Shown here one piece after another: positions 11,703 to 44,320 of a stretch of DNA of 44,886 bases. Source of the stretch: Candidatus Altarchaeales archaeon WOR_SM1_SCG (GTDB lineage: Archaea > Altiarchaeota > Altiarchaeia > IMC4 > WOR-SM1-SCG). Within the stretch, counting starts at the first letter, position 1. Each line of letters opens with the position of its first letter. The notes below the pieces were generated by a model. That model was not told the origin of the DNA. It saw nothing but the letters and a program-made list of their open reading frames with translations, and made no database searches. The position numbers were made by a program, and so were the translations under genes. The stretch is taken from NCBI GenBank assembly GCA_001723845.1, contig MCBE01000267.1, forward strand, positions 1 through 44,886, in the 5' to 3' direction.

Positions 11703-14700
11703 ATGAGGCATAAACAAAAGTTAATCGGACCAGCAGTGGTTTTTTGTTTCATTTGTTTAATTGGAAGTGTCTCTGTTTATGCAGAGATTAATGCAACAAT
11801 TACTGCGGCAATTATAGAATCTGGTAATTTTACGGCAGGTGATGGAGTAGATGCAGATGTGTGTATAGAGAATATAGGTAATGAGACACATACATTCTGT
11901 ATTGGCTATTCTGTCAGGGACGGTAATTATAGTGGTCCAGATGGTGGATGGTGGGATATATCTTGTGAAAATATATCTTTACATCCAAAAAGTGGAGGAG
12001 GTAGTTATTCTGGATGTAAAACTCTTACTTGGATAGTCAATTCGACTGCCCCATCTGGTTCTTATTATGCTCGTGTAGCAGTATGGGCCAACCCACCTTC
12101 GCCTGGAGACACATGGCTTGATTATAACGATACGCTCGATGCATTTAATGTTGTTCCTCCAACAGTTGATGCAACAATTACTTTGAATGATGTATATCCT
12201 GATAATTGTAAAGAAGGCGATAGTGTTTATGCCAATGTATTTGTAAATAATACAGGGGATTTAGATGTTTGCTTTGACATTGACTTTTATGTTTACCCTT
12301 CCGATGGTGGCTTCTGGAACGGGTCCTCTGAACTTCTTTGTCTTGATGTGGGCGAAACAGGTTATGAAACTCTTAACTGGACTGTTCCTTCAGAGGCACC
12401 AACTGGTTATTATGGCGCTTTTGTGTATGTATTAGATTTTGGAACGCCGCTTGATTCAGATACCGAATATGATGCATTTAATGTTGTTCCTCCAACAGTT
12501 GATGCAACAATTACTTTGAATGATGTATATCCTGATAATTGTAAAGAAGGCGATAGTGTTTATGCCAATGTATTTGTAAATAATACAGGGGATTTAGATG
12601 TTTGCTTTGACATTGACTTTTATGTTTACCCTTCCGATGGTGGCTTCTGGAACGGGTCCTCTGAACTTCTTTGTCTTGATGTGGGCGAAACAGGTTATGA
12701 AACTCTTAACTGGACTGTTCCTTCAGAGGCACCAACTGGTTATTATGGCGCTTTTGTGTATGTATTAGATTTTGGAACGCCGCTTGATTCAGATACCGAA
12801 TATGATGCATTTAATGTTGTTCCTCCAACAGTTGATGCAACAATTACTTTGAATGATGTATATCCTGATAATTGTAAAGAAGGCGATAGTGTTTATGCCA
12901 ATGTATTTGTAAATAATACAGGGGATTTAGATGTTTGCTTTGACATTGACTTTTATGTTTACCCTTCCGATGGTGGCTTCTGGAACGGGTCCTCTGAACT
13001 TCTTTGTCTTGATGTGGGCGAAACAGGTTATGAAACTCTTAACTGGACTGTTCCTTCAGGAGCACCAGCCGGTTATTATAATGCTTTCGTGTATGTATTA
13101 GATTTTGAAACGGGAACGCAGCTTGATTATGACCGTGAAGATGACGCATTTAATGTTTATGAGGAATCCAGGAATTATACCCTAACCGTTCAAGTTTATG
13201 ACAATGACACTAATCAAATAATTAGGAATGCCTTTGTTTATTTAGATGATAATCTTATAGGAACAACAGATTTAAATGGAGAGATTTCCATATTTCCCGT
13301 TATAGTGGGTATTCATACAATAAAGGCAACAAAAAGTGAGTACTATGACGGAATAATAACTGTAAATGTATCTTCAAACAAAACAGTTCCAGTTTATCTG
13401 GTTCCAATTGAGCAGGGCAACTACACCATAAGAATTCAAGTTTATGACAACGAGACAGGTTACATGATTAGTAATGCTGAAGTATATCTGGATAATATTT
13501 ATAAAGGAAAAACAGATTCAGACGGGGAGATTTTCATCTTTAATGTTACAGGGGGGAGCCATACAATAAAGGCAACAAAAAACGACTACCATAATGGAAC
13601 CAGAAATATTTATGTAGGTCCAAACACTGCTTTTACGATTCCACTTATGCCAAAAACAGAAAGTGTAGAAGGTTATGTTAGAAATTCAGTTACTGGAAAT
13701 CCTATTGTTAGTGCTGAAGTGAGTATCGGAAACCACACAGATTTTACTGATTACAACGGGTATTACTTATTGGAAAAATTACCTCTTGGAACACAAACAA
13801 TCACAGCATCAAAATCAGGATATGTTCCTTATTCAGGAAATGTAACGATCATAAAAAATACTCAGAGGACATTCAATATACTGTTAACTCCCTATAGTAC
13901 TGGTAGTGTAGGAGGTCACATCAACGATTCAGTTACTGGAGATCCTGTTATTGGTGCTGAAGTGAATATCGGAACTTACTCTGATTACACGAATTCTAAT
14001 GGATATTATCTGTTAGAGAATATTCCCATAGGGAAACATGAATTAACTGCATCAAAATCGGGATATATTTCTCATTCGGAAAATGTAACTATCACAGATA
14101 ATACTCTAACAACATTAGATATATCGTTACAACCTTCTGAACTTAACTTGCCTGATTACATAGTAAATAATGTTGAATTTGAGCCATACCCAACCTTATA
14201 TGAAAACATCACAATTAAAATCTCACTTGCTAATATTGGTGGTCTTGATACTCAAGACGGATGGAAGCAGATTACTGTTAAAGTTTATGATGGAACAATT
14301 GCCAATGAAATAGGGGAAAATACTATTCACTCAGATTTCAAAGGACACGACCTTGAAGTACAATGGTTTCCTTTATCTACCGGGCCCCGGGATATTATAG
14401 TAGAAGTTGATGCAACAAATACGATGCTGGAATCTAACGAAAAAAATAATGAATGGATTAAAAACGTGAATGTGAATAAAATTTATGTCCGGCTTGTTGA
14501 GCTTAGTAAAAATTATAGACCAGAGAACTATGCACTTATCGTTACTCCCAGTGTTCAAGAAGGTTACCTTCCTCTTGATGTTGATATGAAGATGTACAAT
14601 CAAAAGGCAACTTGGTATGAAATTCAAATTAACGACCCTGATGGCGAACAAACTGGATGTTTTGATTGTGGTTTTTCTGATCTTTCAGAGATTTTTTCTC

Positions 14701-17700
14701 ATAGAGGCATCCAACCAAAAGGAACTTTCTCTCGGAGTCGTATTAGTTATAATCCTCTTGAAGCATGGGTTGATAATCCCCTTGGATATTACCCTGTCAC
14801 TTTTGATTATACTTTAGATTATCAAGATACTTGCATGAGCATACAGGCTAGCAGAGGCACTACATACGCAAGAATATTTAACACCGTAGATGCATTTGTT
14901 TTAGCAGCCACAGGTGACCATATAGATTATAATATATTTGTTGAGGGCATACTTAAAAAGATGGATCTTTCAACTCGGCAAAAAGTGATATATAAAATTT
15001 CCCAAGGAGATGGAGTTGGAGTAATTGAGGAACTTGCTAAATGGTTTGAAGATATGGACAATTGTGCAGAGTATGCGCAATTCTTGATTTTTTATCGTAA
15101 TAAAGATGAGGTTGAACTAACTAAAATGAAAAAGGACGCAAAAAGATTTGCAAAGAGATTAGGTATAGTGGTAAGATTTTATACTATCACTCAAACCTTT
15201 GGGGATACATACCTTGCGACAGTGGATGATCAAGTTATAATATCCTTTGAAAAGATAGAAAACCCATCCACAAAAAGTACTTATAGTTCTACACAAGGTG
15301 CATTTACTGCTCAAAGCATTTCTACTGCTCAAAATGTTCAAGGAGAGAATAATGAAACGGAATTTAAATCGCCGATAATTAATTTGATATCACCAAAAAA
15401 TGCAGAGTTAACCAGTACGAATATTACTGTGTCAGGAAATATCACTAATAGAATATCCGATAAGCAGTTACTTGCATATCTTCTTGTTGACGGACAAGCA
15501 GTAAATCAACTAATTCTTGATGAATTGGGACGATTTAATCAATCTATCATAGTTAGTGAAGATTATGTGTTCAGCTGGGATGATGTCCCTGGAAATGAGA
15601 GCGGCAGACTTATAGATTTTCTGGAGAAGAATCAAAATCTGGAGTTAATATATGTGTTCAGCTGGGATGATGTTCCCGGAAATGACAGTGATAAACTTAT
15701 AGGTTTTCTGGAAAATGACCTGAATGTAAGCTGGGTAAAAAACCCCACAATAAACAAAGCTGATGATAACAGAACTATAAATGTATCGGACGGATTGAAT
15801 TTAATTACCCTTGAACTTAACGGTACTGAAAATAAGATAACAATAGAAATCAATGGTGCTGGGACTTATGAATATATTTCAAAAGAGGAAGACGGTACGC
15901 TGAACATGTACAATGCAACACTGGAAAAAACCGAGGATAACAAAACAATTACACTTGCAAACGGAGAAAACTTAATTATTCTTGAACTTAATGATACGGA
16001 ACATAAAGCAACCATGGAGGTTAATGGTGCAGAGGTTTACGAGTACATCTTAAAAGAAGAGAATAGTGGATTAAACTTATATAGTGAAGCGGTTCATATT
16101 ATAACTGTCAGAGCCAACAATACAAATATAACACTAAAACTCAATAATACAAATATCTCAATTGATAATACTGCTGAAGTATCTGTCGCGATTTTGGCAG
16201 GAACACATCCTAACCGGACATTTTTTTCATATACCGGGGCAAGTCCCTCCAGAGTATCTACAAATGGCGAAATTAAAATACATGCAAAAATCGTTGGCGG
16301 GTTCACGGGCTATGTTAATGCAACAGTTAATGATACAACAGTTCCATTGATATACAACTCAACGACAGGGTTTTTTGAGAATGTAATTTTTGCTCCAAGT
16401 GTCAATGGGACTTATAGGATTAATGTAGCAGCAATTAATTTGACATGGAATATAGTGGCACAAAATAATTTAAGTATAATAACTGTTGAGAACCCATCAC
16501 TCATAATTAATGAGGCATATTCAGATAAATTATCATATAAATTAAATGAAAGTGTAACGATATATAGTTTAGTACAGGATGAAAATGGAAATAGTATTTC
16601 TCCAGATAGTATTTACGCCACCATCAAAAATCCTGTTGGTCATGTAACTCAAATAGTTCTAAATCAAGAATATCCGGGGCACTATAGCGGATCCTTCATT
16701 AACACTACATTATTAGGAGAGTATGATGTAACAGTATATGCCAACAAATCAGGATACGCCAATGCAACATATTCATTTACATTTGATGTATTTAATTACC
16801 TCCCCGCAGCATCAATTACTTCACCGGAAAATGGAAAATCGTATGGAGAAAATTATCCAATAACCTTTGAGGGTTTCGGTGTAGATAAGGACAGTGCGAT
16901 CAATTCCTTTACCTGGACATCAAATATTGATGGAACATTAAGAATTAATTCCAATCCTGCTTGTTCAAAACAAACAGATACGCAATGTGATGATTCATTT
17001 AGTATCTCAAATTTATCTGTGGGTACACATATAATAACCCTCAAGATCATAAGTGATGATAATGGATTTGATATTGCACGAAAGACAATAAACATTATTC
17101 TGTGCTCCTGTTCAAATTGTAGTGACTGCACAGCAAAGTTAAGCGATCCTAATTGCAATGTTGTTGCCTTAACGGTGGACATAACAGATCATTCAGGAAC
17201 ATGTATTGATAATCCGATAAGTTTCAGCAATAAAATATTCAACTGTCAAGGATACATGATTGATGGAGATGAATCAGGAAACAGTTACGGTATATTCACA
17301 AATTCTCAAAATAACATTACAATACAAAACTGCAATATTACGAATTTTCAATATGCAATAAGAGTTGTAAAAACGCATAATTCTACATTTACAAATCTGA
17401 AGGTATCTACATTTGACAGAAGCCAAATTACAGCAGTAAGCTCATATGGCATATATTCAACCGGAAATAATAACGGGTTTTTTGAAATTCACGCGCACTC
17501 AATCAACGGAGATGATGATTCTGCGGGGTGTGGAGATAATGGAGGTGATGCCTATGGCATATATTCATCAGGGAGCAACTGCAATTTTTCAAATGTAACT
17601 TTAGATAATATTAATGGTGGCTATGGAGCATTAGAATCATCCTGTAGCCCAAAACAGGGTGATGGAGGTGATGCCTATGGCATATACTCAACAGGAAGTA

Positions 17701-20700
17701 ATAACACATTTACAGGTGTAAGAACAAACTTAATTAGAGGAGGTTATGGTCAAAATGCTGCATTCTCAGGCGTTGGCAGATGCGACGGTGGAGACGGAGG
17801 TGATGCCTACGGCATATATTCATCAGGAAGCAACAACACATTTACAGGGATAAACACAAGCAACACCGTAGGTTTTCATTGTGGATATGGAAGTTATAGT
17901 ACAGGAACTACAGGAGGCGATGGCGGAGACGGAGGTGATGCCTACGGCATATACTCAACAGGTGACAATAACACATTTATGAATACAAATGAATATTTAA
18001 CTATCGGGTACTCTGCATGTACTGGAGGTTACGGCGTTTCGGGTTATGGTGCAAGCGGCGCGGAAGGGAAAGGTTACGGTTTATATATTTCAGGCAAGGG
18101 AAATAAATTAATCTCAAATGCGATCTGTTCAAATGAACACTATGACATTTACAACACATACTCAAAATCGGGTAACAACAACACGTGCAACACAATAAAT
18201 AATTGGGGTGATGTTGGAATTGAAAGGGGCTGCACTTTCAGATGCGATGGTGCTGCATGTGATTTTGATAATGATTTCTATACAAAAACTGCTTGTAATG
18301 GAACGGATTGTGATGATAATAATTCAAATAAATTTCCCGGAAATCCAGAAATTTGTGACGGACTTGATAATGACTGTGATAAAAGTATAGATAATGGTTT
18401 AACCCCTTATCTAAACAACTCAAATCAGAAAGGAGTTTGTGCAGGTTCTAAAAAAACATGTAAAGGCGTATCTGGATGGCAAGATGATTACTCTGGAATA
18501 CCTTATTATGAAGAAACCGAATTAAGCTGCGATGGAAAGGACAATGACTGCGATGGAATTGCTGATGATAACCTAATTGCTCCAAACAACACAAACCAGG
18601 CGGGAGTTTGCAAAGGTTCCACAAAAACATGTAAAGGTGCATTGGGCTGGCAGGATGATTACTATAAAATAGGTTATTATGAAGAAACTGAATTAAGCTG
18701 CGATGGTATGGATAACGACTGCGATGGAAAGATTGATAATGACTTACCTACTCATTTGAACTCAAACCAGAAGGGTGTTTGTGCAGGTTCTAAAAAAACA
18801 TGCAGCGGTGCATCTGGATGGCAGGATAACTACTCTGGAATATCTGATTATCAAGAAACTGAGACACTTTGCGATAAAAAAGATAATGACTGCGACGGGG
18901 AAATAGACGAATACGAGGGATGCAGAGCAGACCTTACTATAGAGTCATTAATCTGCTCCAATGAAAGCGCAATGATCTGCGATGAGGTAAATATAACCTC
19001 TGTTGTAAAGAATCTTGGGTTTATTAATGCTTCGGGTCTGGATTATGTCAGGGTTTATCTTTTCGTTGATAATGTTTATGAGGACTCAAGAACAATAAAC
19101 TTAACAGGCAATGATGCTGGAGAGGTGAATTTCACATGGACTGCTGTTCGTGATGCTGGTGTGCATAATTTAAAGATTTTTGCCGACTATGATAATTTGA
19201 TAGAAGAGAAAAATGAAAGCAATAATTTTAAATCAAAGAATATAACCGTAATCATCAAACCGCCTGTTGCGTCCAATCCGTCGGTTGTTCCGGCAGTATC
19301 CACAGTAGATGTTAAAACTTTATTTAACTACTCCATAGAGGTCAGCGACAGCTACGATAACTGCGATGATATGATAAATGTACTGCTGGAAGTGCGCGAC
19401 CCGTCATCAGGCGAATGGAAATCATACAGCATTGTAAATATTTACGGCTCTGGAACTGCGTGGTGGCTGGTTAAGCCATTTGATGAAAATGATGAGAATA
19501 TGAATCCATCATACAGGTTCAAATACAGCGACAGTTTTGATCAGACAGGAACATGGGGCGAATACGATGGACCAACTATTCTTGATGAAGATACTCAGGG
19601 ACCAGTGTTTAATCTTATATGGAAAAGCGGTAATGTCTCATCAGACCGGTTTTATATTGCAAGTGTTGAAATTGAAGATCCTTCAGGCGTTTTATATAAT
19701 TCAACTTCACCTGTATGCTACTACAGTTACGGTCCAAATGTCAGCGATTCAAATTATGCAGGTTATGTGAGCATGTCCTTAACCGACACCGGACTGCCAT
19801 TGGGCTTTACAGGATATATTCCTCCGTCAGGGGATGAAAACGAGAACAAAACAATTTATTTCAGGATTTACGCCCACGACAATGACAACAGCCCTGCACG
19901 AGGAGATAGTGGCGTGATTGAAGGCGGCAAAATACTGGACGATGACACTGAACCGCCTGTAATCCATTTAAACTCGCATTATTACCCTGAACAGATGATA
20001 AGCGGGAAAAATATATCTGTCTTACACATCAAAATCAATGATAAATCAGGAATTTCAAACACAACATTAAAATATTCCTATAATAAAAATTCATGGAGTA
20101 CCGGAACACAGTCATATTCGGGAAAGGACTGGACTTTCACAATCCTGCCGCAGAGCGAAGACCATGAAGGAGAGACGCTATATTTTTATGTAGAAGCATG
20201 TGATGATGATAATTCAAAGGAATGCTCAAGGAATGATAATGATGGAAATTATTATAATATTTCAATTTTAGATGAAGATATATATCCCCCGTTCATACAT
20301 GCGGTAAAGGTTGAAGAGACAGTTTATGATAACGGTGTGATCTCACCGGGTGAAAATATTACAATTTCCTGGGGTGCAAATGATATGAACAATATCAGTG
20401 AAACCAGCTGCAATGTTACTACAAATGGGTGCAGTAGTGTCGGTTCCGTGCAAAATTCTAACGGCGGCTACTATGTTATTGTTGAAAACTGTGCGGCATC
20501 AAATGCGAGCAACTTTACGGAATATGATTTCACAATAACTGCCGAAGACAATGATAATTCAAAAAATTCAAGTACAAAAACAGGAACTTTCAGGGTTTAT
20601 TCAAACAGAACCGAGATGACAACTAAATTTTCAGATAATTCAACGAGTAAGATTATAGTGTTTGAGGGGGCAGGGTCAAAGGTGGTTAATGTTACAATTC

Positions 20701-23700
20701 CAACGCAGGGTGAAGTTATAGATGCGAGTTTTGATCTTTATTCACTGTTTGATGAAGCGGTTGTGGTTTTGAATCTTAAGTCAAATCCTTATGTGGGTGG
20801 GAATTGGACTGTTGATTTTGTGACAACAGGTTCTGGGGCGGATGCGTTGAAGGTTACTGCGATTGATGGGACTGAGTTTGGAGTTGATATTGATTTTTTG
20901 GGGTTGTACTGCGGGGATGAAGAAGTTGATTTTAATGTTACGGGCAATGAGTATTTTTCTAATAACTGGGACTGCCTGGAAGAAGGGCATATTGTGAATG
21001 AAGTTTTGACAGAAGGGGAGCATCATTTGAGGGTAGAGTTTGGAGATGAGGTTGGTTTTGCAGATAATTATGCTGGTTGTACCTGTAATACATGTGATGA
21101 TTGTGAGGTAAAGTTAAATGATTCTGGTTGCACTGAGGTTAGATTAACTACGGATATAAACGATTACGGTGGAATTTGTATCAACAATCCTGCAAATTTT
21201 AACAATAAGATATTTGACTGTCAAGGACATACAATTGATGGAGATGGTTCCGGGGGGGATTATGGAATTTATTTAGATGAGAATTATGGGAATACGATCA
21301 AAAATTGTGTGATACAACAGTTCCAATATGGAATTAAATCTACTGGACCTACCAATACTTTTTTAGATATAACTGCTTCGGATAACCGGGGCAATAATGG
21401 TTACCATGGATCTGGAGATGATAGTTATGGAATTTACTCTTCAGGTGATCATGTTATATTCTCAAACGTGATTGCTTCGTCTAATTATGGGGGTAGTGGT
21501 CATCACGATGGTGACGACGGCTACCCGGGTGGTTATAGCTATGGGATTTATTCATCTGGCGACTATGTTACATTCTCAAGCGTGACTACTTCGGTTAACC
21601 GTGGGGGGGATAGCAATGGTGGCTACAGCGGTGTTTTTGCTGGCTATGGCTATGGAATTTACTCTTCAGGTGATCATGTTATATTCTCGAACGTGATTGC
21701 TTCTTCTAATCGTGGTGGTGATGGTAGTGGTAGTAGAAGTAGCTATGGGGGTACAGGATATGGGGTTTACGTTTCGGGTAATGACATTACCTTTTCAGAT
21801 GTGACTGCATCTTATAATCATGGCGGCAGTGGTACGGGTTCTGGAGATTACGAAAGTCGGGGAGGAGTAGGGTATGGGATTTACGTTTCAGGTAATGACA
21901 TTACCTTTTCAGATGTGACTGCATCTTATAATCATGGTAACGAGGGGTGGGGCGGTGGTCCCGGTGGATCAGGGTATGGAATATATGCTCCAAATAATAA
22001 TATTGAATTTTCACATGTAACTGCTTCGTCTAATTATGGAGCACATGGCGCTTATGGCGCTTTTAGTAACCCGGGTCATGGAGGTAGTGGTTATGGGATT
22101 TATGCCCCAGGTAGTGGAGTCACATTCTCATACATAAATGCTTCTTATAATTATGGAGGCGATCGAGGAAGTGGTAAACGCTGTGCACCTGGTGGTCAAG
22201 GTTATGGAATTTATACATTAAGCAATAATATTGAATTCGTATATGTGAATGCTTCGCATAATTATGCAGGCAGTGGAGCTAATGGGAACGCTCACAGCAA
22301 TGTAGGATCTGGAATTAACGCTCCAGGAGACAACAATATTTTCTTGCATGTGAATGCTTCGCATAATGGAGGAGGTGCAGGAGTATATTGCCAAGACTGT
22401 AACGAACATGGTAGTCCAGGACATGGGATTTATGCCCCCGGTAACAATATTGAATTATCAGACATAGTAACTTCATATAATTATGGAGGGGGAGCTGGAA
22501 CTGCTCGCAATGGTGGTCCAGGTTATGGGATTTACTTATCAGGTGATGGAAGTACTTTCTCAGATATAACTGCCTCGTATAACAGGGGAGGAGGAGGGGG
22601 TAGTAGTTATAGTGGTCCGGGTTATGGGATTTATTTAGATTCTTCATCAAATAATACTCTAAATTATATAACTACTTCTTCTAATCGTGGTGGTAACGGA
22701 GGTTATTGGAAGGGTGGAAAGAGTGGCGGTACAGGTTATGGAATTTATTTAGATTCTTCATCAAATAATAATCTAAATTATATAACTGCATCTTCTAATC
22801 GTGGTGGTAACGGAGGAGTTACTTATAGCAGTGACTATAATGGAGGTGATGGAGGTACTGGTTATGGTGTTTATTTATTCTCATCATCAAATAATAATCT
22901 AAATTATATAACCACTTCTTCTAATCATGGTGGAAATAAAGGTTGCTTTCATACCAACCCCAGTTATAAATGTGGTGTTGATGGTTCTGGTTACGGAATT
23001 TACTCACATAGTTCAACTTCAACTATAGATTCAAGTATTGTTTGCAATAATACAAATTTAGACCTTAGTTCTTCTGACTGGTTATCAAGTTCTGGAGATA
23101 ATAATTATTGTGATAAACCGGATGGGTGGAATGATGATGGAGCGACCGGATGCACTTTCAATTGTCCGTGTCCGTGCTCAAGTTGTGATGATTGTGAGAC
23201 GCAGTTAAGTAACGCTTCTTGTGATGTGGTTATGTTAACAGCAGATATATCAAATTATGCTGGGATTTGTATAAACAATCCTGTAAATTTCAGCAATAAG
23301 ATATTCGACTGTCAGGGGCATATGATTGATGGTGTTGGTAATATATTTTCTTGGCCACCTGAATATGGGATTCATCTGAATGGGAAATCGGGGAATACGC
23401 TTAGGAATTGTATAGTTAATGAATTTGGCTGGGCAGGAATTAGGTTAGAATCTTCTTCAGGCAACACCGTAACCAGCAACACATTAAATTCAAACGGTGT
23501 TGGAATTTGGGTAGACTACTCCTCAAACAATAATATAATAAGCAATACTGCAAATTCAAATTTGTATGGGATTTATTTCTACAGTGCTTCAAACAACAAT
23601 GTTAATGAGAACCAATTATGCAGTAATTCAAATACGGATATAGATATTAGAAGTGGTTCAGGTAACACGGGTGATAACAATAAATGTGATAAAACTTCTG

Positions 23701-26700
23701 GATGGAATGACGGTGGGACCACAGGATGCACTTACTGCTGTTCAGATGCTGGCTGCCCTGCAGACACTGCATGCGCAGACCATTATTGCAGTGGAGGCAC
23801 TTGTGCTGTGACTTATAGTGATAAGAACACTCTATGTGATAGTACTTATAGGTGTAGCTCAGGTTATGGATATAATAAGTATGGTACAGGTGGAGATTAT
23901 AGGTGTAGAGGATATTGTGATGATGTTTCTGGTAATTGTATAAATGCAGATGACTGTACTCTTTGTCCTACAGGTGCAACGGATTCCGATGGTTCATTAA
24001 CAGCGTACACAACCGCAGGAACTGTAACTGATTATACTGGTTGCTCAGGCGGGGAGTGTACATCAACGAATTACAATGATTATTGTTTCAGTGGGACTTG
24101 GTTAAAAGAACACGGCATTTCTGGATTATCTTATACCACCGGCGATAAACAATGCCAGGATTATGAAAATGATAATTGTATTGGTGGAAAATATTATCGC
24201 CAGGAATGGGGATGTTCCGAGTCGCCGGGTTATTGTAATGATGGAGCGGTTGCAGATACACACATAGGAACTGATACCGATGGAGATGGACACGATAATG
24301 AATGTGAGAGTTGTGATTATGAACACAGTAGAACATCACCAGCAACAGAAAGCGGTTCAGCTAATTGCAACAATGGAATAGATGATGATTGTGATGGAAC
24401 ATCTCTCACTGAATTTGAGGCGGATTATGATACAATGGACAGAGGTCCAGCAGGTCATGTACCAAGTCACGGGGATGACGGATGTCCTGTTGGCATAGAT
24501 TCAATAAGTGTTTCAGATTCCAATCCGTGTCCCGGAGAAACTATTGAAGTCAAATGTAAATCCGGTGTGGGGGTTGTAAACAGTATAAATGCCTATATAG
24601 ATTCTACACTTTGCACTTTTATTGGCTGGTCCGGTGACGATGCGAGATTTAGTTGTCCTGTTGGAAGTGTAGGGTCTAAAACTGTAAAATGTACTGTGGA
24701 CGCCACAAAATCATATCAATCCGAGAATGATAAAACTACAACAATCACCGTCGGGGGACCTCCTTGTTGTTCTGGATATGGAACATCCAATGTATGTGAA
24801 GTTGATTCAGCATGTGACTGGTGCAATGAATGTTCTGGAACAAAATACAGCGGCGGAACAAACAGATGCGTAACAACAGGAAATTGTAATTATTATTGTT
24901 GGAAAAATAAATGTGGCGCGGCATGTGATGGCACACAGGGTGGATGTGATGATACAACAAGGTGTAATGGCAAGATATATCAAACAAGAACCGCTGCTTG
25001 CACTGGTTCATGTAATTGTTCTTATGGCAGCTGGATTGATGGAACATGCAGTGAATCAGTAAGCAATTGCGGAGCAGAATGCGATTCAGATGATGATTGT
25101 GGGAATATGGATTGTGATTATTTAGATGGTTGTTATGGTAACATATACCGGGATTATCAGGGTGTAACCAATACATGCCAATCTGGTTGTACCTGCACTT
25201 CTGGAATTTGTGATTCTTATAGTGAAGAAATTGATTATGACACTGACGGATATTCAGCGAGTTGTGGAGATTGCAACGATAGTGATAGAGACATGTTTCC
25301 CGGGAATAATGAAACCTGTGATGGAAAAGATAATGACTGTAATGGAAAAACCGACTGTATAAATGAAGTTGGAGATCTTATATGCAATGCCAATTGGATG
25401 TGTTCTTTGGGTTCTGGAGATAACAAATATAGCACGGGGGGAGATTACCTGTGCCAGGGATATTGTGATGGTTCGGGAAGTTGTGATTATGCGGTAAATT
25501 GTAATTACTGCAAGGATGGCTGCGTATTTGATTCATGCGTGGATGTTTCATTCGGAGATGAAATAAATGTCGGAAACTACAAAAGGAAACTTGTTACCAT
25601 TTCAAAGTCCGAGAATGATGCATGGTCACGTGCCGTATATACAAACGTACCTGCTGGAATTTTGTGGTGGTGGGTTCAGGAAGGAAATGACAGCGGTTAC
25701 GGAAATCCAAATAAACACTGTATGGGAGATAGTAAATTAAGTGATTTTGGAAGTTCATTGATATCATGGACAGCAGATGCTCTGGAAGGGGAAAAGCTAT
25801 CTTATGAGACAATCTGCTATGCAAATACAATACCTCTATCACTTGATGTTGGCTCCGATGGAGATGATGAATGGAAGAATTCCAGTTTTAAAAATGAAAC
25901 TATAAATGATGCAACTGTCCCAGATATTGTAAATGAAATGAATGATTATAAAAATAAATTTTGTTCTTCGGGTTCATGTAATATTCCGTTAAATTTTACT
26001 TCATCTCAAAAAGGTAAATTATTGATTTCAAACCTGAGAATTTATTATAATATTTTCAGGGAGGAATCTTCAGTTGCGATAAGTTCATCCGGAGTTGATA
26101 TTGCAGAGGTGATGGAAGAAGGAGGAAACCTGACTCTTTCCGCAAGCGTTGCATGGAATGATATAGTCTCCGGGTCTGAAAATAAATCAATAAATTATAC
26201 ATGGATGCTTGACGGTAATGTGACAAACCAATCAACAATAAATTCCTCACAGCGAGGGATTGACGGTAATGTGGTGCTGCAATACAACTTTACACCAAAC
26301 TACACTCAAGGGTGTACAAGAATATTTGATTTAATAATAGAAGCAGGAAATTTCAGCACTTCAAGAAGATGGTTTATTACAGTGTATGATGTTAACAGGG
26401 ATCCGGGTATTGATCACGAATTTCAGATAGAAACAAATGAAGACACCCCGGTAAATATTCCTTTAAATAAATCAGACCCTGACGGGGATACGAATCTGAC
26501 CTGGGACATCAGCGGTGTGGATATGAGTTTATTTAATGCAGAAATTGGCAGTGATGTGCTTACAATCACGCCGGTTAAAGATAGATACGGCGAAAGTAAC
26601 CTCACGCTTACATTAACCGACAGCGGCGGTGCGCAGGATTCAAAAACACTTAATGTAAATATCACCCCGGTTAATGACCTGCCGGTTATCACTCCGGAAG

Positions 26701-28019
26701 TGCCGGGGATTATAACAGAGGAAGATACTCCTTTAACAATTGACCTCACTTCTTATGGAATGGATGTAGAGGATTATGGGTCTGGTCTGGTTTGGAGTGT
26801 AAGCGGAGTAAATGAGAATTTGTTTACAGCATCAATAAACACGGGAACTGATGAATTGATCGTAATGCCCGAACATAACAAATTCGGAGAAGATACTGTA
26901 ACTTTAACGCTGACAGATAGTGACGGAGGTAAAACCACACAGGAAATTAATGTTAAAATTACTCCCGTTAACGACCCTCCGATTAATGAAATTGCAGATA
27001 TATCATTTGATGAAGATAATGTTTCTGCAAAATATCTGGATTTAGAGGTCAGTGACATTGAAACAAGTAGCAATGACTTAAAAATTAGTGTAAATCCTGT
27101 TAAGAATCTTGATGCTGTGTTGGCTGCTGTGGATATAGATAACAATACTCATTTATTAACTATTACGCCTGTAGAAAATGCTTACGGCAGTGATACAATG
27201 ATTATTGATGTTACGGATGCTGACAATAAAACAACATCCAGACTTGTGAAAGTCACAATAAATCCTGTAAATGACATGCCTTCAATTGATTCGGCATCTC
27301 CTGAAAATAATGTAACAATTACTGAAGGGGAATCTCAAACATTTGAAATTACTAAATCAGATCCTGACGGAACAGTACCAAAAGTGAAATGGTATCTGGA
27401 TTCATCCCGGGTAAGTACAGGAGACAGTTATGTTTATTTCTCGGATTACGGCTCTGCCGGAACCTATAATGTGACGGTTCTCGTATCTGATGAAACCATG
27501 GCTAATTCGCATGAATGGACTTTAAATGTAAACTATAACCCTGACTACGACAATGACGGAGTTTCCAATGAAAACGACACATGTCCCGGTACGCATACCG
27601 GAAAAACCGTTGATTTAACAGGCTGCTCATGTTCACAGAAAAACTGTGCCGAAGACCAGTTCTGTGATGCTTTAGCTCAATGCCAGAACTTAAATTGTTC
27701 CGAGGGTGATTATCCTTTCAACCACACATGTGAAGCTAACATGACTTACTGCCCTATCCACACGAATTGTTTGAGTAACGAAACATGCAATACTACAAAC
27801 AATAAATGCCAGACATTGAATTGTCCAACAAATCATGAGCCGTTCAATCACCACTGCTACCACAACTGCGACCGGAATTATGATAAAATTCATGTTCATA
27901 ATTGGGATGACTTAATGACATCCTACAAATGCTTTTTAGGAATCAAAAATTGTAATAATTATTATCAAAATTGGAATTTAATTAAACAGGAATATGAATG
28001 CTTTGTTAATGCTCAATAA
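11703..28019 (+). CDS. Giant secreted mosaic surface protein (5438 aa)
   Basis: One uninterrupted frame. A signal peptide (residues 1-27) is followed by CARDB-like units (about 30-480, including three 111-residue repeats), two PEGA-like domains (485-645), two carboxypeptidase-regulatory-like repeats (650-810), a CARDB unit (815-925) and an unrecognised domain (about 930-1220). Then come the WDDVPG modules (1288-1462), Ig-like parts, beta-helix array 1 (1801-2178), MopE-like repeats (2186-2407), CARDB/Ig-like parts (2410-3120), beta-helix arrays 2 and 3 (3126-4013), cysteine-rich repeats (4014-4607), cadherin-like repeats (about 4900-5190), a thrombospondin-3-like stretch (DYDNDGVSNENDTCPGT) and a cysteine-rich tail. 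N-x-S/T sites are abundant. No transmembrane helix or PGF-CTERM-like anchor is seen at the C-terminus, so attachment may be non-covalent. An adhesin or cell-surface structural role is inferred. No Shine-Dalgarno precedes the ATG, suggesting a leaderless or weak start. Confidence 0.92.
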   Translation: MRHKQKLIGPAVVFCFICLIGSVSVYAEINATITAAIIESGNFTAGDGVDADVCIENIGNETHTFCIGYSVRDGNYSGPDGGWWDISCENISLHPKSGGGSYSGCKTLTWIVNSTAPSGSYYARVAVWANPPSPGDTWLDYNDTLDAFNVVPPTVDATITLNDVYPDNCKEGDSVYANVFVNNTGDLDVCFDIDFYVYPSDGGFWNGSSELLCLDVGETGYETLNWTVPSEAPTGYYGAFVYVLDFGTPLDSDTEYDAFNVVPPTVDATITLNDVYPDNCKEGDSVYANVFVNNTGDLDVCFDIDFYVYPSDGGFWNGSSELLCLDVGETGYETLNWTVPSEAPTGYYGAFVYVLDFGTPLDSDTEYDAFNVVPPTVDATITLNDVYPDNCKEGDSVYANVFVNNTGDLDVCFDIDFYVYPSDGGFWNGSSELLCLDVGETGYETLNWTVPSGAPAGYYNAFVYVLDFETGTQLDYDREDDAFNVYEESRNYTLTVQVYDNDTNQIIRNAFVYLDDNLIGTTDLNGEISIFPVIVGIHTIKATKSEYYDGIITVNVSSNKTVPVYLVPIEQGNYTIRIQVYDNETGYMISNAEVYLDNIYKGKTDSDGEIFIFNVTGGSHTIKATKNDYHNGTRNIYVGPNTAFTIPLMPKTESVEGYVRNSVTGNPIVSAEVSIGNHTDFTDYNGYYLLEKLPLGTQTITASKSGYVPYSGNVTIIKNTQRTFNILLTPYSTGSVGGHINDSVTGDPVIGAEVNIGTYSDYTNSNGYYLLENIPIGKHELTASKSGYISHSENVTITDNTLTTLDISLQPSELNLPDYIVNNVEFEPYPTLYENITIKISLANIGGLDTQDGWKQITVKVYDGTIANEIGENTIHSDFKGHDLEVQWFPLSTGPRDIIVEVDATNTMLESNEKNNEWIKNVNVNKIYVRLVELSKNYRPENYALIVTPSVQEGYLPLDVDMKMYNQKATWYEIQINDPDGEQTGCFDCGFSDLSEIFSHRGIQPKGTFSRSRISYNPLEAWVDNPLGYYPVTFDYTLDYQDTCMSIQASRGTTYARIFNTVDAFVLAATGDHIDYNIFVEGILKKMDLSTRQKVIYKISQGDGVGVIEELAKWFEDMDNCAEYAQFLIFYRNKDEVELTKMKKDAKRFAKRLGIVVRFYTITQTFGDTYLATVDDQVIISFEKIENPSTKSTYSSTQGAFTAQSISTAQNVQGENNETEFKSPIINLISPKNAELTSTNITVSGNITNRISDKQLLAYLLVDGQAVNQLILDELGRFNQSIIVSEDYVFSWDDVPGNESGRLIDFLEKNQNLELIYVFSWDDVPGNDSDKLIGFLENDLNVSWVKNPTINKADDNRTINVSDGLNLITLELNGTENKITIEINGAGTYEYISKEEDGTLNMYNATLEKTEDNKTITLANGENLIILELNDTEHKATMEVNGAEVYEYILKEENSGLNLYSEAVHIITVRANNTNITLKLNNTNISIDNTAEVSVAILAGTHPNRTFFSYTGASPSRVSTNGEIKIHAKIVGGFTGYVNATVNDTTVPLIYNSTTGFFENVIFAPSVNGTYRINVAAINLTWNIVAQNNLSIITVENPSLIINEAYSDKLSYKLNESVTIYSLVQDENGNSISPDSIYATIKNPVGHVTQIVLNQEYPGHYSGSFINTTLLGEYDVTVYANKSGYANATYSFTFDVFNYLPAASITSPENGKSYGENYPITFEGFGVDKDSAINSFTWTSNIDGTLRINSNPACSKQTDTQCDDSFSISNLSVGTHIITLKIISDDNGFDIARKTINIILCSCSNCSDCTAKLSDPNCNVVALTVDITDHSGTCIDNPISFSNKIFNCQGYMIDGDESGNSYGIFTNSQNNITIQNCNITNFQYAIRVVKTHNSTFTNLKVSTFDRSQITAVSSYGIYSTGNNNGFFEIHAHSINGDDDSAGCGDNGGDAYGIYSSGSNCNFSNVTLDNINGGYGALESSCSPKQGDGGDAYGIYSTGSNNTFTGVRTNLIRGGYGQNAAFSGVGRCDGGDGGDAYGIYSSGSNNTFTGINTSNTVGFHCGYGSYSTGTTGGDGGDGGDAYGIYSTGDNNTFMNTNEYLTIGYSACTGGYGVSGYGASGAEGKGYGLYISGKGNKLISNAICSNEHYDIYNTYSKSGNNNTCNTINNWGDVGIERGCTFRCDGAACDFDNDFYTKTACNGTDCDDNNSNKFPGNPEICDGLDNDCDKSIDNGLTPYLNNSNQKGVCAGSKKTCKGVSGWQDDYSGIPYYEETELSCDGKDNDCDGIADDNLIAPNNTNQAGVCKGSTKTCKGALGWQDDYYKIGYYEETELSCDGMDNDCDGKIDNDLPTHLNSNQKGVCAGSKKTCSGASGWQDNYSGISDYQETETLCDKKDNDCDGEIDEYEGCRADLTIESLICSNESAMICDEVNITSVVKNLGFINASGLDYVRVYLFVDNVYEDSRTINLTGNDAGEVNFTWTAVRDAGVHNLKIFADYDNLIEEKNESNNFKSKNITVIIKPPVASNPSVVPAVSTVDVKTLFNYSIEVSDSYDNCDDMINVLLEVRDPSSGEWKSYSIVNIYGSGTAWWLVKPFDENDENMNPSYRFKYSDSFDQTGTWGEYDGPTILDEDTQGPVFNLIWKSGNVSSDRFYIASVEIEDPSGVLYNSTSPVCYYSYGPNVSDSNYAGYVSMSLTDTGLPLGFTGYIPPSGDENENKTIYFRIYAHDNDNSPARGDSGVIEGGKILDDDTEPPVIHLNSHYYPEQMISGKNISVLHIKINDKSGISNTTLKYSYNKNSWSTGTQSYSGKDWTFTILPQSEDHEGETLYFYVEACDDDNSKECSRNDNDGNYYNISILDEDIYPPFIHAVKVEETVYDNGVISPGENITISWGANDMNNISETSCNVTTNGCSSVGSVQNSNGGYYVIVENCAASNASNFTEYDFTITAEDNDNSKNSSTKTGTFRVYSNRTEMTTKFSDNSTSKIIVFEGAGSKVVNVTIPTQGEVIDASFDLYSLFDEAVVVLNLKSNPYVGGNWTVDFVTTGSGADALKVTAIDGTEFGVDIDFLGLYCGDEEVDFNVTGNEYFSNNWDCLEEGHIVNEVLTEGEHHLRVEFGDEVGFADNYAGCTCNTCDDCEVKLNDSGCTEVRLTTDINDYGGICINNPANFNNKIFDCQGHTIDGDGSGGDYGIYLDENYGNTIKNCVIQQFQYGIKSTGPTNTFLDITASDNRGNNGYHGSGDDSYGIYSSGDHVIFSNVIASSNYGGSGHHDGDDGYPGGYSYGIYSSGDYVTFSSVTTSVNRGGDSNGGYSGVFAGYGYGIYSSGDHVIFSNVIASSNRGGDGSGSRSSYGGTGYGVYVSGNDITFSDVTASYNHGGSGTGSGDYESRGGVGYGIYVSGNDITFSDVTASYNHGNEGWGGGPGGSGYGIYAPNNNIEFSHVTASSNYGAHGAYGAFSNPGHGGSGYGIYAPGSGVTFSYINASYNYGGDRGSGKRCAPGGQGYGIYTLSNNIEFVYVNASHNYAGSGANGNAHSNVGSGINAPGDNNIFLHVNASHNGGGAGVYCQDCNEHGSPGHGIYAPGNNIELSDIVTSYNYGGGAGTARNGGPGYGIYLSGDGSTFSDITASYNRGGGGGSSYSGPGYGIYLDSSSNNTLNYITTSSNRGGNGGYWKGGKSGGTGYGIYLDSSSNNNLNYITASSNRGGNGGVTYSSDYNGGDGGTGYGVYLFSSSNNNLNYITTSSNHGGNKGCFHTNPSYKCGVDGSGYGIYSHSSTSTIDSSIVCNNTNLDLSSSDWLSSSGDNNYCDKPDGWNDDGATGCTFNCPCPCSSCDDCETQLSNASCDVVMLTADISNYAGICINNPVNFSNKIFDCQGHMIDGVGNIFSWPPEYGIHLNGKSGNTLRNCIVNEFGWAGIRLESSSGNTVTSNTLNSNGVGIWVDYSSNNNIISNTANSNLYGIYFYSASNNNVNENQLCSNSNTDIDIRSGSGNTGDNNKCDKTSGWNDGGTTGCTYCCSDAGCPADTACADHYCSGGTCAVTYSDKNTLCDSTYRCSSGYGYNKYGTGGDYRCRGYCDDVSGNCINADDCTLCPTGATDSDGSLTAYTTAGTVTDYTGCSGGECTSTNYNDYCFSGTWLKEHGISGLSYTTGDKQCQDYENDNCIGGKYYRQEWGCSESPGYCNDGAVADTHIGTDTDGDGHDNECESCDYEHSRTSPATESGSANCNNGIDDDCDGTSLTEFEADYDTMDRGPAGHVPSHGDDGCPVGIDSISVSDSNPCPGETIEVKCKSGVGVVNSINAYIDSTLCTFIGWSGDDARFSCPVGSVGSKTVKCTVDATKSYQSENDKTTTITVGGPPCCSGYGTSNVCEVDSACDWCNECSGTKYSGGTNRCVTTGNCNYYCWKNKCGAACDGTQGGCDDTTRCNGKIYQTRTAACTGSCNCSYGSWIDGTCSESVSNCGAECDSDDDCGNMDCDYLDGCYGNIYRDYQGVTNTCQSGCTCTSGICDSYSEEIDYDTDGYSASCGDCNDSDRDMFPGNNETCDGKDNDCNGKTDCINEVGDLICNANWMCSLGSGDNKYSTGGDYLCQGYCDGSGSCDYAVNCNYCKDGCVFDSCVDVSFGDEINVGNYKRKLVTISKSENDAWSRAVYTNVPAGILWWWVQEGNDSGYGNPNKHCMGDSKLSDFGSSLISWTADALEGEKLSYETICYANTIPLSLDVGSDGDDEWKNSSFKNETINDATVPDIVNEMNDYKNKFCSSGSCNIPLNFTSSQKGKLLISNLRIYYNIFREESSVAISSSGVDIAEVMEEGGNLTLSASVAWNDIVSGSENKSINYTWMLDGNVTNQSTINSSQRGIDGNVVLQYNFTPNYTQGCTRIFDLIIEAGNFSTSRRWFITVYDVNRDPGIDHEFQIETNEDTPVNIPLNKSDPDGDTNLTWDISGVDMSLFNAEIGSDVLTITPVKDRYGESNLTLTLTDSGGAQDSKTLNVNITPVNDLPVITPEVPGIITEEDTPLTIDLTSYGMDVEDYGSGLVWSVSGVNENLFTASINTGTDELIVMPEHNKFGEDTVTLTLTDSDGGKTTQEINVKITPVNDPPINEIADISFDEDNVSAKYLDLEVSDIETSSNDLKISVNPVKNLDAVLAAVDIDNNTHLLTITPVENAYGSDTMIIDVTDADNKTTSRLVKVTINPVNDMPSIDSASPENNVTITEGESQTFEITKSDPDGTVPKVKWYLDSSRVSTGDSYVYFSDYGSAGTYNVTVLVSDETMANSHEWTLNVNYNPDYDNDGVSNENDTCPGTHTGKTVDLTGCSCSQKNCAEDQFCDALAQCQNLNCSEGDYPFNHTCEANMTYCPIHTNCLSNETCNTTNNKCQTLNCPTNHEPFNHHCYHNCDRNYDKIHVHNWDDLMTSYKCFLGIKNCNNYYQNWNLIKQEYECFVNAQ
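12138..13136 (+). repeat. Three tandem 333-bp CARDB-coding repeats
   Basis: Units start at 12138, 12471 and 12804. Units 1 and 2 appear identical base for base. Unit 3 is identical until about 13058 and then diverges (SGAPAGYYNAF instead of SEAPTGYYGAF). Each encodes 111 residues (residues 146-478). Identity at synonymous positions points to recent duplication or gene conversion, and copy number may vary between strains or be collapsed in assembly. Confidence 0.95.
15564..16088 (+). mobile_element. Nested WDDVPG modules in the giant protein
   Basis: An N-terminal half module (15564-15650, YVFSWDDVPGNESGRLIDFL) is followed by a complete module (15651-15911, YVFSWDDVPGNDSDKLIGFL through EEDGTLNMY), then a C-terminal half (about 15921-16088, EKTEDNKTITLANGENLI through YEYILKEENSGLNLY). 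The two halves together make one module, so the complete copy seems to have inserted into an older one. The complete copy matches the one in the restriction-modification gene. Confidence 0.65.
17103..18235 (+). other. Beta-helix array 1 of the giant protein
   Basis: It begins with a cysteine header (CSCSNCSDC, then FSNKIFNCQGYMIDG), followed by repeats of the type GGDAYGIYSSGSNNTFTGV separated by glycine-rich loops. This is the pattern of parallel right-handed beta-helix domains (pectate-lyase/NosD-like), common in surface carbohydrate-binding or adhesive proteins. No catalytic residues can be assigned. Confidence 0.7.
18258..18922 (+). other. MopE-like metal-binding repeats
   Basis: Four copies of a motif such as CDGKDNDCDGIADD are separated by about 55 residues containing GVCAGSKKTCKG..GWQDDY. 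This is the pattern of the MopE-type putative metal-binding motif, seen in secreted proteins and named from a methanotroph copper protein. Aspartates may bind Ca2+ instead; metal identity cannot be told from sequence. Another motif copy lies near 25315 (CDGKDNDCNGKTDC). Confidence 0.75.
21078..23160 (+). other. Beta-helix array 2 of the giant protein
   Basis: The header CTCNTCDDC...FNNKIFDCQGHTIDG is followed by about fifteen repeats such as GYGIYVSGNDITFSDVTASY with intervening NHGGSG-type glycine-rich loops. Local DNA repeats (for example around 21770 and 21885) show duplication within the array. A long right-handed beta-helix is the likely fold. Confidence 0.72.
23169..23740 (+). other. 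Beta-helix array 3 of the giant protein (NosD-like)
   Basis: The same cysteine header recurs (CPCSSCDDCETQLSN, then FSNKIFDCQGHMIDG), followed by shorter NosD/PbH1-like repeats such as SSGNTVTSNTLNSNGVGIWV. It ends at NKCDKTSGWNDGG, an ending shared with array 2 (NYCDKPDGWNDDG), so header and ending delimit a reusable cassette. Confidence 0.7.
26401..27270 (+). other. Cadherin-like tandem repeats of the giant protein
   Basis: Three repeats of about 90 residues, each with an NEDTPVNIPL- or EEDTPLTIDL-like start and an NVNITPVNDLPVI-like end. This is the signature of the Big/cadherin-like (tandem-95-type) repeats of bacterial and archaeal adhesins, which are stiffened by Ca2+ at the linker aspartates. 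Confidence 0.75.
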
Positions 28020-28032
28020 AATTTAATGATGT

Positions 28033-28090
28033 CCAGATGATGAAAGCGAAGTAGGCTGAACAGTGATGACAAGGGTAGCTGCTGATGGAT
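28033..28090 (+). ncRNA. C/D box sRNA, copy 1 (double guide, targets 23S peptidyl-transferase centre)
   Basis: Canonical archaeal layout: C box ATGATGA (28037-28043), 12-nt guide, D' box CTGA (28056-28059), 3-nt gap, C' box GTGATGA (28063-28069), 12-nt guide, D box CTGA (28082-28085), and a short terminal stem TCCA/TGGA. The D' guide pairs with 23S 43933-43942 (10 bp); the fifth base from the box selects C43936, equivalent to E. coli C2498. The D guide pairs with 43873-43881 (9 bp) and selects U43876, equivalent to E. coli U2438. In such RNPs (L7Ae, Nop5, fibrillarin) the RNA directs 2'-O-methylation. It lies just after the giant gene. Confidence 0.88.
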
Positions 28091-28268
28091 ATTATAAAAT
28101 CTAAATTCTCGGTGGGGTGGAGCGTAGCGTAACCCCGTCATTTCCGAGTCATACGCGGAAAGCCCCCGACGGCGAGTCGGGTGGATTTGTCGTCGGCAAA
28201 CTCCGACGATGACTCGCGAAGTAGGCTGAACAGTGATGACAAGGGTAGCTGCTGATGGATATTATAAA
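28046..28268 (+). repeat. 53-bp direct repeats flanking a GC-rich island
   Basis: 28046-28098 equals 28216-28268 exactly. Between them lie 117 bp of GC-rich DNA with several palindromes: TTTCCG/CGGAAA, CCCGAC (28165-28170)/GTCGGG (28176-28181), and TCGTCGG/CCGACGA near 28190-28209, including the GTCGTCGG core seen at the gatB and 23S-tail duplications. Confidence 0.9.
28203..28260 (+). ncRNA. C/D box sRNA, copy 2
   Basis: A duplicate of the upstream sRNA: D' box CTGA 28226-28229, C' box GTGATGA 28233-28239, D box CTGA 28252-28255, with identical guides near the boxes. The C box is altered to ACGATGA (28206-28212), one base off consensus, with one extra base in the first guide; the terminal stem survives with a G-U pair. 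It may still be functional. Confidence 0.65.
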
Positions 28269-28337
28269 TTCCCGCCATTATTTCTTTATTTTTATTGTCT
28301 TTTTTAATTATTAATACCTGTACTATGATTATTTAAT

Positions 28338-41425: not shown

Positions 41426-44320
<2,895 letters not shown>

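Follow-up and report, generated by a model that had tools for sequence, protein, structure and literature searches.

Archaeal dual-guide C/D box sRNAs typically have two neighbouring targets per RNA (PMC7994747), so a pair of nearby targets is not special on its own. The guides of such RNAs with nearby targets are known to evolve fast (PMC7994747; PMC4644070), and C/D sRNA genes usually lie just downstream of an open reading frame (ORF) (PMC7994747). The described RNAs closest to the locus studied here are the Pyrococcus snoPyro_CD and Rfam sR dual guides. In bacteria, RlmM (Cm2498) and RlmB (Gm2251) modify the same bases of the large-subunit (LSU) rRNA as the guide RNAs considered below, but they are stand-alone protein enzymes and are not RNA-guided, so the parallel is functional only. 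Methylation of G2251 has been predicted in three species (PMC4644070). Cm2498 is given only for E. coli RlmM (PMC11542601), which bears out the enzyme and site named in a preliminary description of the locus. In mostly open-access main texts, we found no report of an RNA guide for C2498, and we claim no priority; nor did we see, in the accessible literature, C2498 and U2438 as the paired targets of an archaeal dual guide.

We analysed a stretch of 44,886 nucleotides of Candidatus Altarchaeales archaeon WOR_SM1_SCG (contig MCBE01000267.1), which we call the window. The preliminary description had placed two tandem C/D sRNAs there. For the first, copy 1, the boxes and guides lie where they had been reported (Table 1). 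Both spacers of copy 1 are 12 nt long, and its boxes and external stem have the geometry of a k-turn with a 3-nt bulge. The sequence features expected of an archaeal C/D sRNA were found in copy 1: C/D boxes able to form a k-turn with the stem, C'/D' boxes, spacers of about 12 nt and complementarity to rRNA in which the fifth guide base before the box faces the target. Its 5' end is 7 nt past the stop codon of an ORF of 5438 aa. Copy 1 is like the Pyrococcus and Rfam dual guides in the order of its boxes, the length of its spacers and its k-turn features; as in those RNAs, the two rRNA targets are close together and the gene lies just downstream of an ORF. However, it scores below the gathering score of every Rfam family (the best, snoPyro_CD, gives 26.2 bits versus 45). 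Our covariance model, of which copy 1 is itself a training member, gives it 81.8 bits at 28030-28091. Genes for fibrillarin and Nop5 were found in the WOR_SM1_SCG genome, and an L7Ae gene was not found in this assembly, which is 74% complete. Copy 1 is well supported as a real guide RNA of the C/D box class, of an ordinary kind. The ORF directly upstream (window 11703-28019) has repeated surface-protein-like segments.

Table 1. Features of the sRNA locus, its predicted rRNA targets and a tandem relative (window positions unless a locus is named)
Feature	Position	Strand	Basis or remark
Copy 1, complete C/D box sRNA with external stem	28027..28094	+	9 stem pairs including 2 G-U; covariance model
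External stem, copy 1	28027-28035 / 28086-28094	+	9 bp, two G-U
C box AUGAUGA, copy 1	28037..28043	+	sequence and k-turn criteria
D' guide AAGCGAAGUAGG, copy 1	28044..28055	+	10 Watson-Crick pairs, 28045-28054
D' box CUGA, copy 1	28056..28059	+	sequence
C' box GUGAUGA, copy 1	28063..28069	+	sequence
D guide CAAGGGUAGCUG, copy 1	28070..28081	+	9 Watson-Crick pairs, 28072-28080; core invariant in aligned homologues
D box CUGA, copy 1	28082..28085	+	sequence
GC-rich dispersed repeat with hairpins, between the copies	28102..28215	+	partial matches elsewhere in the same genome
Copy 2, identical sRNA body; proper C box and external stem lacking	28216..28271	+	probably non-functional
P-loop G2251, LSU rRNA	43687	+	site of the D' guide of homologues in most relatives, though not of copy 1
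D guide target, LSU rRNA	43873..43881	+	predicted 2'-O-methyl U43876 = E. coli U2438
D' guide target, LSU rRNA	43933..43942	+	predicted 2'-O-methyl C43936 = E. coli C2498
U2453, U2499, C2503 substitutions, peptidyl-transferase ring	43891, 43937, 43941		
Two intact tandem C/D sRNAs of G004, differing in D' guides	L177 1501-1669		

The LSU sites were numbered by alignment to rrlB of E. coli K-12 MG1655. This alignment confirmed that C43936 corresponds to C2498 and U43876 to U2438, as had been proposed. C43936 is paired by G28051, the fifth base before the D' box, and U43876 by A28077, the fifth base before the D box. For each guide, its site in Table 1 was the best one in the SSU and LSU rRNA of WOR_SM1_SCG. 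The pairing that had been claimed for both RNAs holds for copy 1 (10 and 9 Watson-Crick pairs), while copy 2 lacks the tenth D' pair. Among 2000 shuffled guides, the 10-pair run of the D' guide was reached by 3 and the 9-pair run of the D guide by 78. The two targets are 60 nt apart and flank LSU helix 89. Throughout the order, the rRNA has U2453, U2499 and C2503, versus A, C and A in E. coli. The C2498 guide fits the order's own U2499 and C2503, and the duplex has an energy of -18.4 kcal/mol, compared with -9.5 kcal/mol on canonical archaeal rRNA. A pattern search of 394 archaeal genomes with exact boxes, at the D' position only, gave no D' guides for canonical archaeal C2498. There is good support for the predicted C/D sRNA with dual guides for C2498 and U2438.

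Using BLAST and a covariance model, we searched for homologues in relatives. It turned out that they occur in 20 of the 24 genomes of the order, WOR_SM1_SCG included, and in 4 of 5 other genomes of the class; the homologue in other archaea for which the preliminary description had suggested looking does exist. The D guide core GGGUAGCU is invariant across all aligned homologues, and U2438 is a fit for the D guide in every case. The D' guides fall mainly into two types. In type 1 (AGCGAAGUAG), the guide fits C2498; this type is present in WOR_SM1_SCG (family f1) and, within family f5, in G006, G008, G016 and copy A of G004. Its pairing is longer in G008 (14) and G016 (13). Type 2 (ACCGACCCAG and related guides) matches G2251 of the P-loop and is found in the outgroups and most families. 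The type 2 pairing has no break in f7, the sister order, or in the distant genomes G036, G076 and G096. In f7, the D' guide ACCGUCCCAG forms 10 pairs with the P-loop sequence CUGGGGCGGU, and the D guide is the same; the D' guide of G036, ACCGCCCCAG, forms 12 Watson-Crick pairs. In f2 and f4, there is one internal A-G mismatch in the P-loop pairing, which makes methylation of G2251 less sure in these families. The f5 rRNA has GUGGGGCGC as its P-loop stem (helix 80), and in this family the type 2 guides are altered in step with it (GCGACCCAC in copy B of G004, GCGCUCCAU in G014). For G004 and G014, the guides were compared with LSU sequences from other f5 genomes. The tandem pair in G004 has one copy of each D' type with an identical D guide. 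The D' guide of G010 is without a clear target. We set aside extra AGCGAAGTAG matches in G009 and G014, which are without C/D boxes, and weak model matches in f12 genomes (e.g., L195 and L196), which resemble other C/D RNAs.

The run length of the D guide alone is reached by about 4% of shuffled guides, as might be expected of chance complementarity in an unrelated sequence. But the boxes, stem and guides are conserved over several families, and the guides change along with their targets. Since both guides and targets are conserved in other families, chance is untenable, and we regard its probability as negligible. The D guide could also act mainly at position 1076 (E. coli numbering) in the GTPase-associated centre and not at U2438, as in many relatives CAGCUAUCCU at 1076 offers 10 pairs with one G-U, versus 8 at U2438. 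However, the base at 1076 is C in WOR_SM1_SCG, G003, G076, G096 and f7, and A in G036, and neither can pair with the guide A at the site to be methylated. The D guide is nevertheless kept in genomes with C or A at 1076, where it pairs best at or near U2438, and the first base of the guide in G004 and G014 agrees with the flank of U2438. We consider a main site at 1076 unlikely, and this target was set aside. The RNA may assist rRNA folding, an idea raised in the preliminary description. It is as improbable as a main site at 1076, in our opinion, that the main role of the RNA is that of a folding chaperone bracketing helix 89, with methylation being secondary. Such a role has been proposed for double guides (PMC7994747), and the two targets do flank this helix at a short distance. 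Yet both guides keep the fifth-base register that methylation requires, and the D guide stays in relatives whose D' partner site is 189 nt from U2438, not 60.

The presence of two copies in WOR_SM1_SCG might mean that both function and raise the dosage of the RNA. Copy 2 is identical to copy 1 over 54 nt, keeps the D', C' and D boxes, both guides and the GAUGA core, and scores 51.4 bits with the covariance model; G004 has two intact tandem copies. However, the C box of copy 2 is ACGATGA, versus AUGAUGA in copy 1 (a U-to-C change), its C-D' spacer is 13 nt, and it has no external stem in the standard 3-nt-bulge geometry. By the k-turn criteria that copy 1 passes, copy 2 falls short in both stem and C box. 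Its C-box region is part of a hairpin of 10 bp (-12.8 kcal/mol) in the inserted repeat, a competing structure that covers the C box, and the bases preceding its D' guide derive from this repeat as well. We find a dosage effect rather doubtful. Because the repeat hairpin has replaced the C box and the stem, copy 2 is probably a broken fragment. The locus would probably encode one RNA and not two, copy 2 being a recent broken duplicate, and the earlier view of two working tandem copies is not supported. The repeat between the copies is palindromic. The sequence 3' of copy 2 (AAATTCCCG) resembles the start of the repeat, a likeness hinting at how the duplication originated.

The guide for G2251 and U2438 in f2, f4, f7, G036, G076 and G096 has the same D guide target and layout as copy 1, but its D' guide fits P-loop G2251, whereas that of copy 1 fits C2498. 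Copy 1 has the D guide for U2438 that characterizes this family and lacks the D' guide for G2251. Judged by its sequence, copy 1 is a retargeted homologue of this family. The pair of type 2 guide and U2438 guide is probably ancestral, since it is present in the outgroups. Type 1 looks like a re-aimed D' guide, and we infer that the switch ran from G2251 to C2498 by this route. Copy 1 would descend from an older archaeal RNA that guided to both G2251 and U2438; the D guide of this ancestor would have been retained and its D' guide re-aimed to C2498, perhaps via a tandem duplicate such as that kept in G004. In the LSU tree, f1 grouped with f4, which has type 2, and apart from f5. This indicates that either the ancestor had both copies, with differential loss later, or the switch occurred twice independently; each scenario fits the G004 tandem. 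We lean towards a history in which the old G2251 guide was duplicated and re-aimed to C2498. One RNA family would then provide RNA-guided counterparts of RlmB and RlmM in different species, in a lineage with uncommon catalytic-centre rRNA substitutions beside the new target.

We consider it highly probable that copy 1 works as an archaeal dual-guide C/D sRNA for C2498 and U2438 that descended from a G2251/U2438 guide by re-aiming of its D' guide. Through its k-turns, copy 1 would bring in L7Ae, Nop5 and fibrillarin. C2498 would be 2'-O-methylated under the D' guide and U2438 under the D guide; the two bases flank LSU helix 89 beside the peptidyl-transferase ring. We infer that copy 1 is transcribed, assembled into an RNP and active in methylation. 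The family offers a clear comparative case of guide switching, where one guide is constant and the other moves between two catalytic-centre bases, and a tandem relative retains both D' forms. RNA-guided 2'-O-methylation is predicted at C2498, for which the reviewed literature gives only a bacterial protein enzyme, and this makes a convergence of RNA- and protein-based methylation at this base directly testable.

The rRNA of relatives varies further in this region. The sister order f7 has C2503 and C2504 at the peptidyl-transferase ring, and C2503 is also present in G036, G076 and G096. In several relatives (G013, G017, G009, G015 and G012), the LSU rRNA has insertions at the position of window 43916, at the tip of helix 89. 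They range from 42 nt to more than 100 nt, lie between the two guide targets and are introns or helix extensions.
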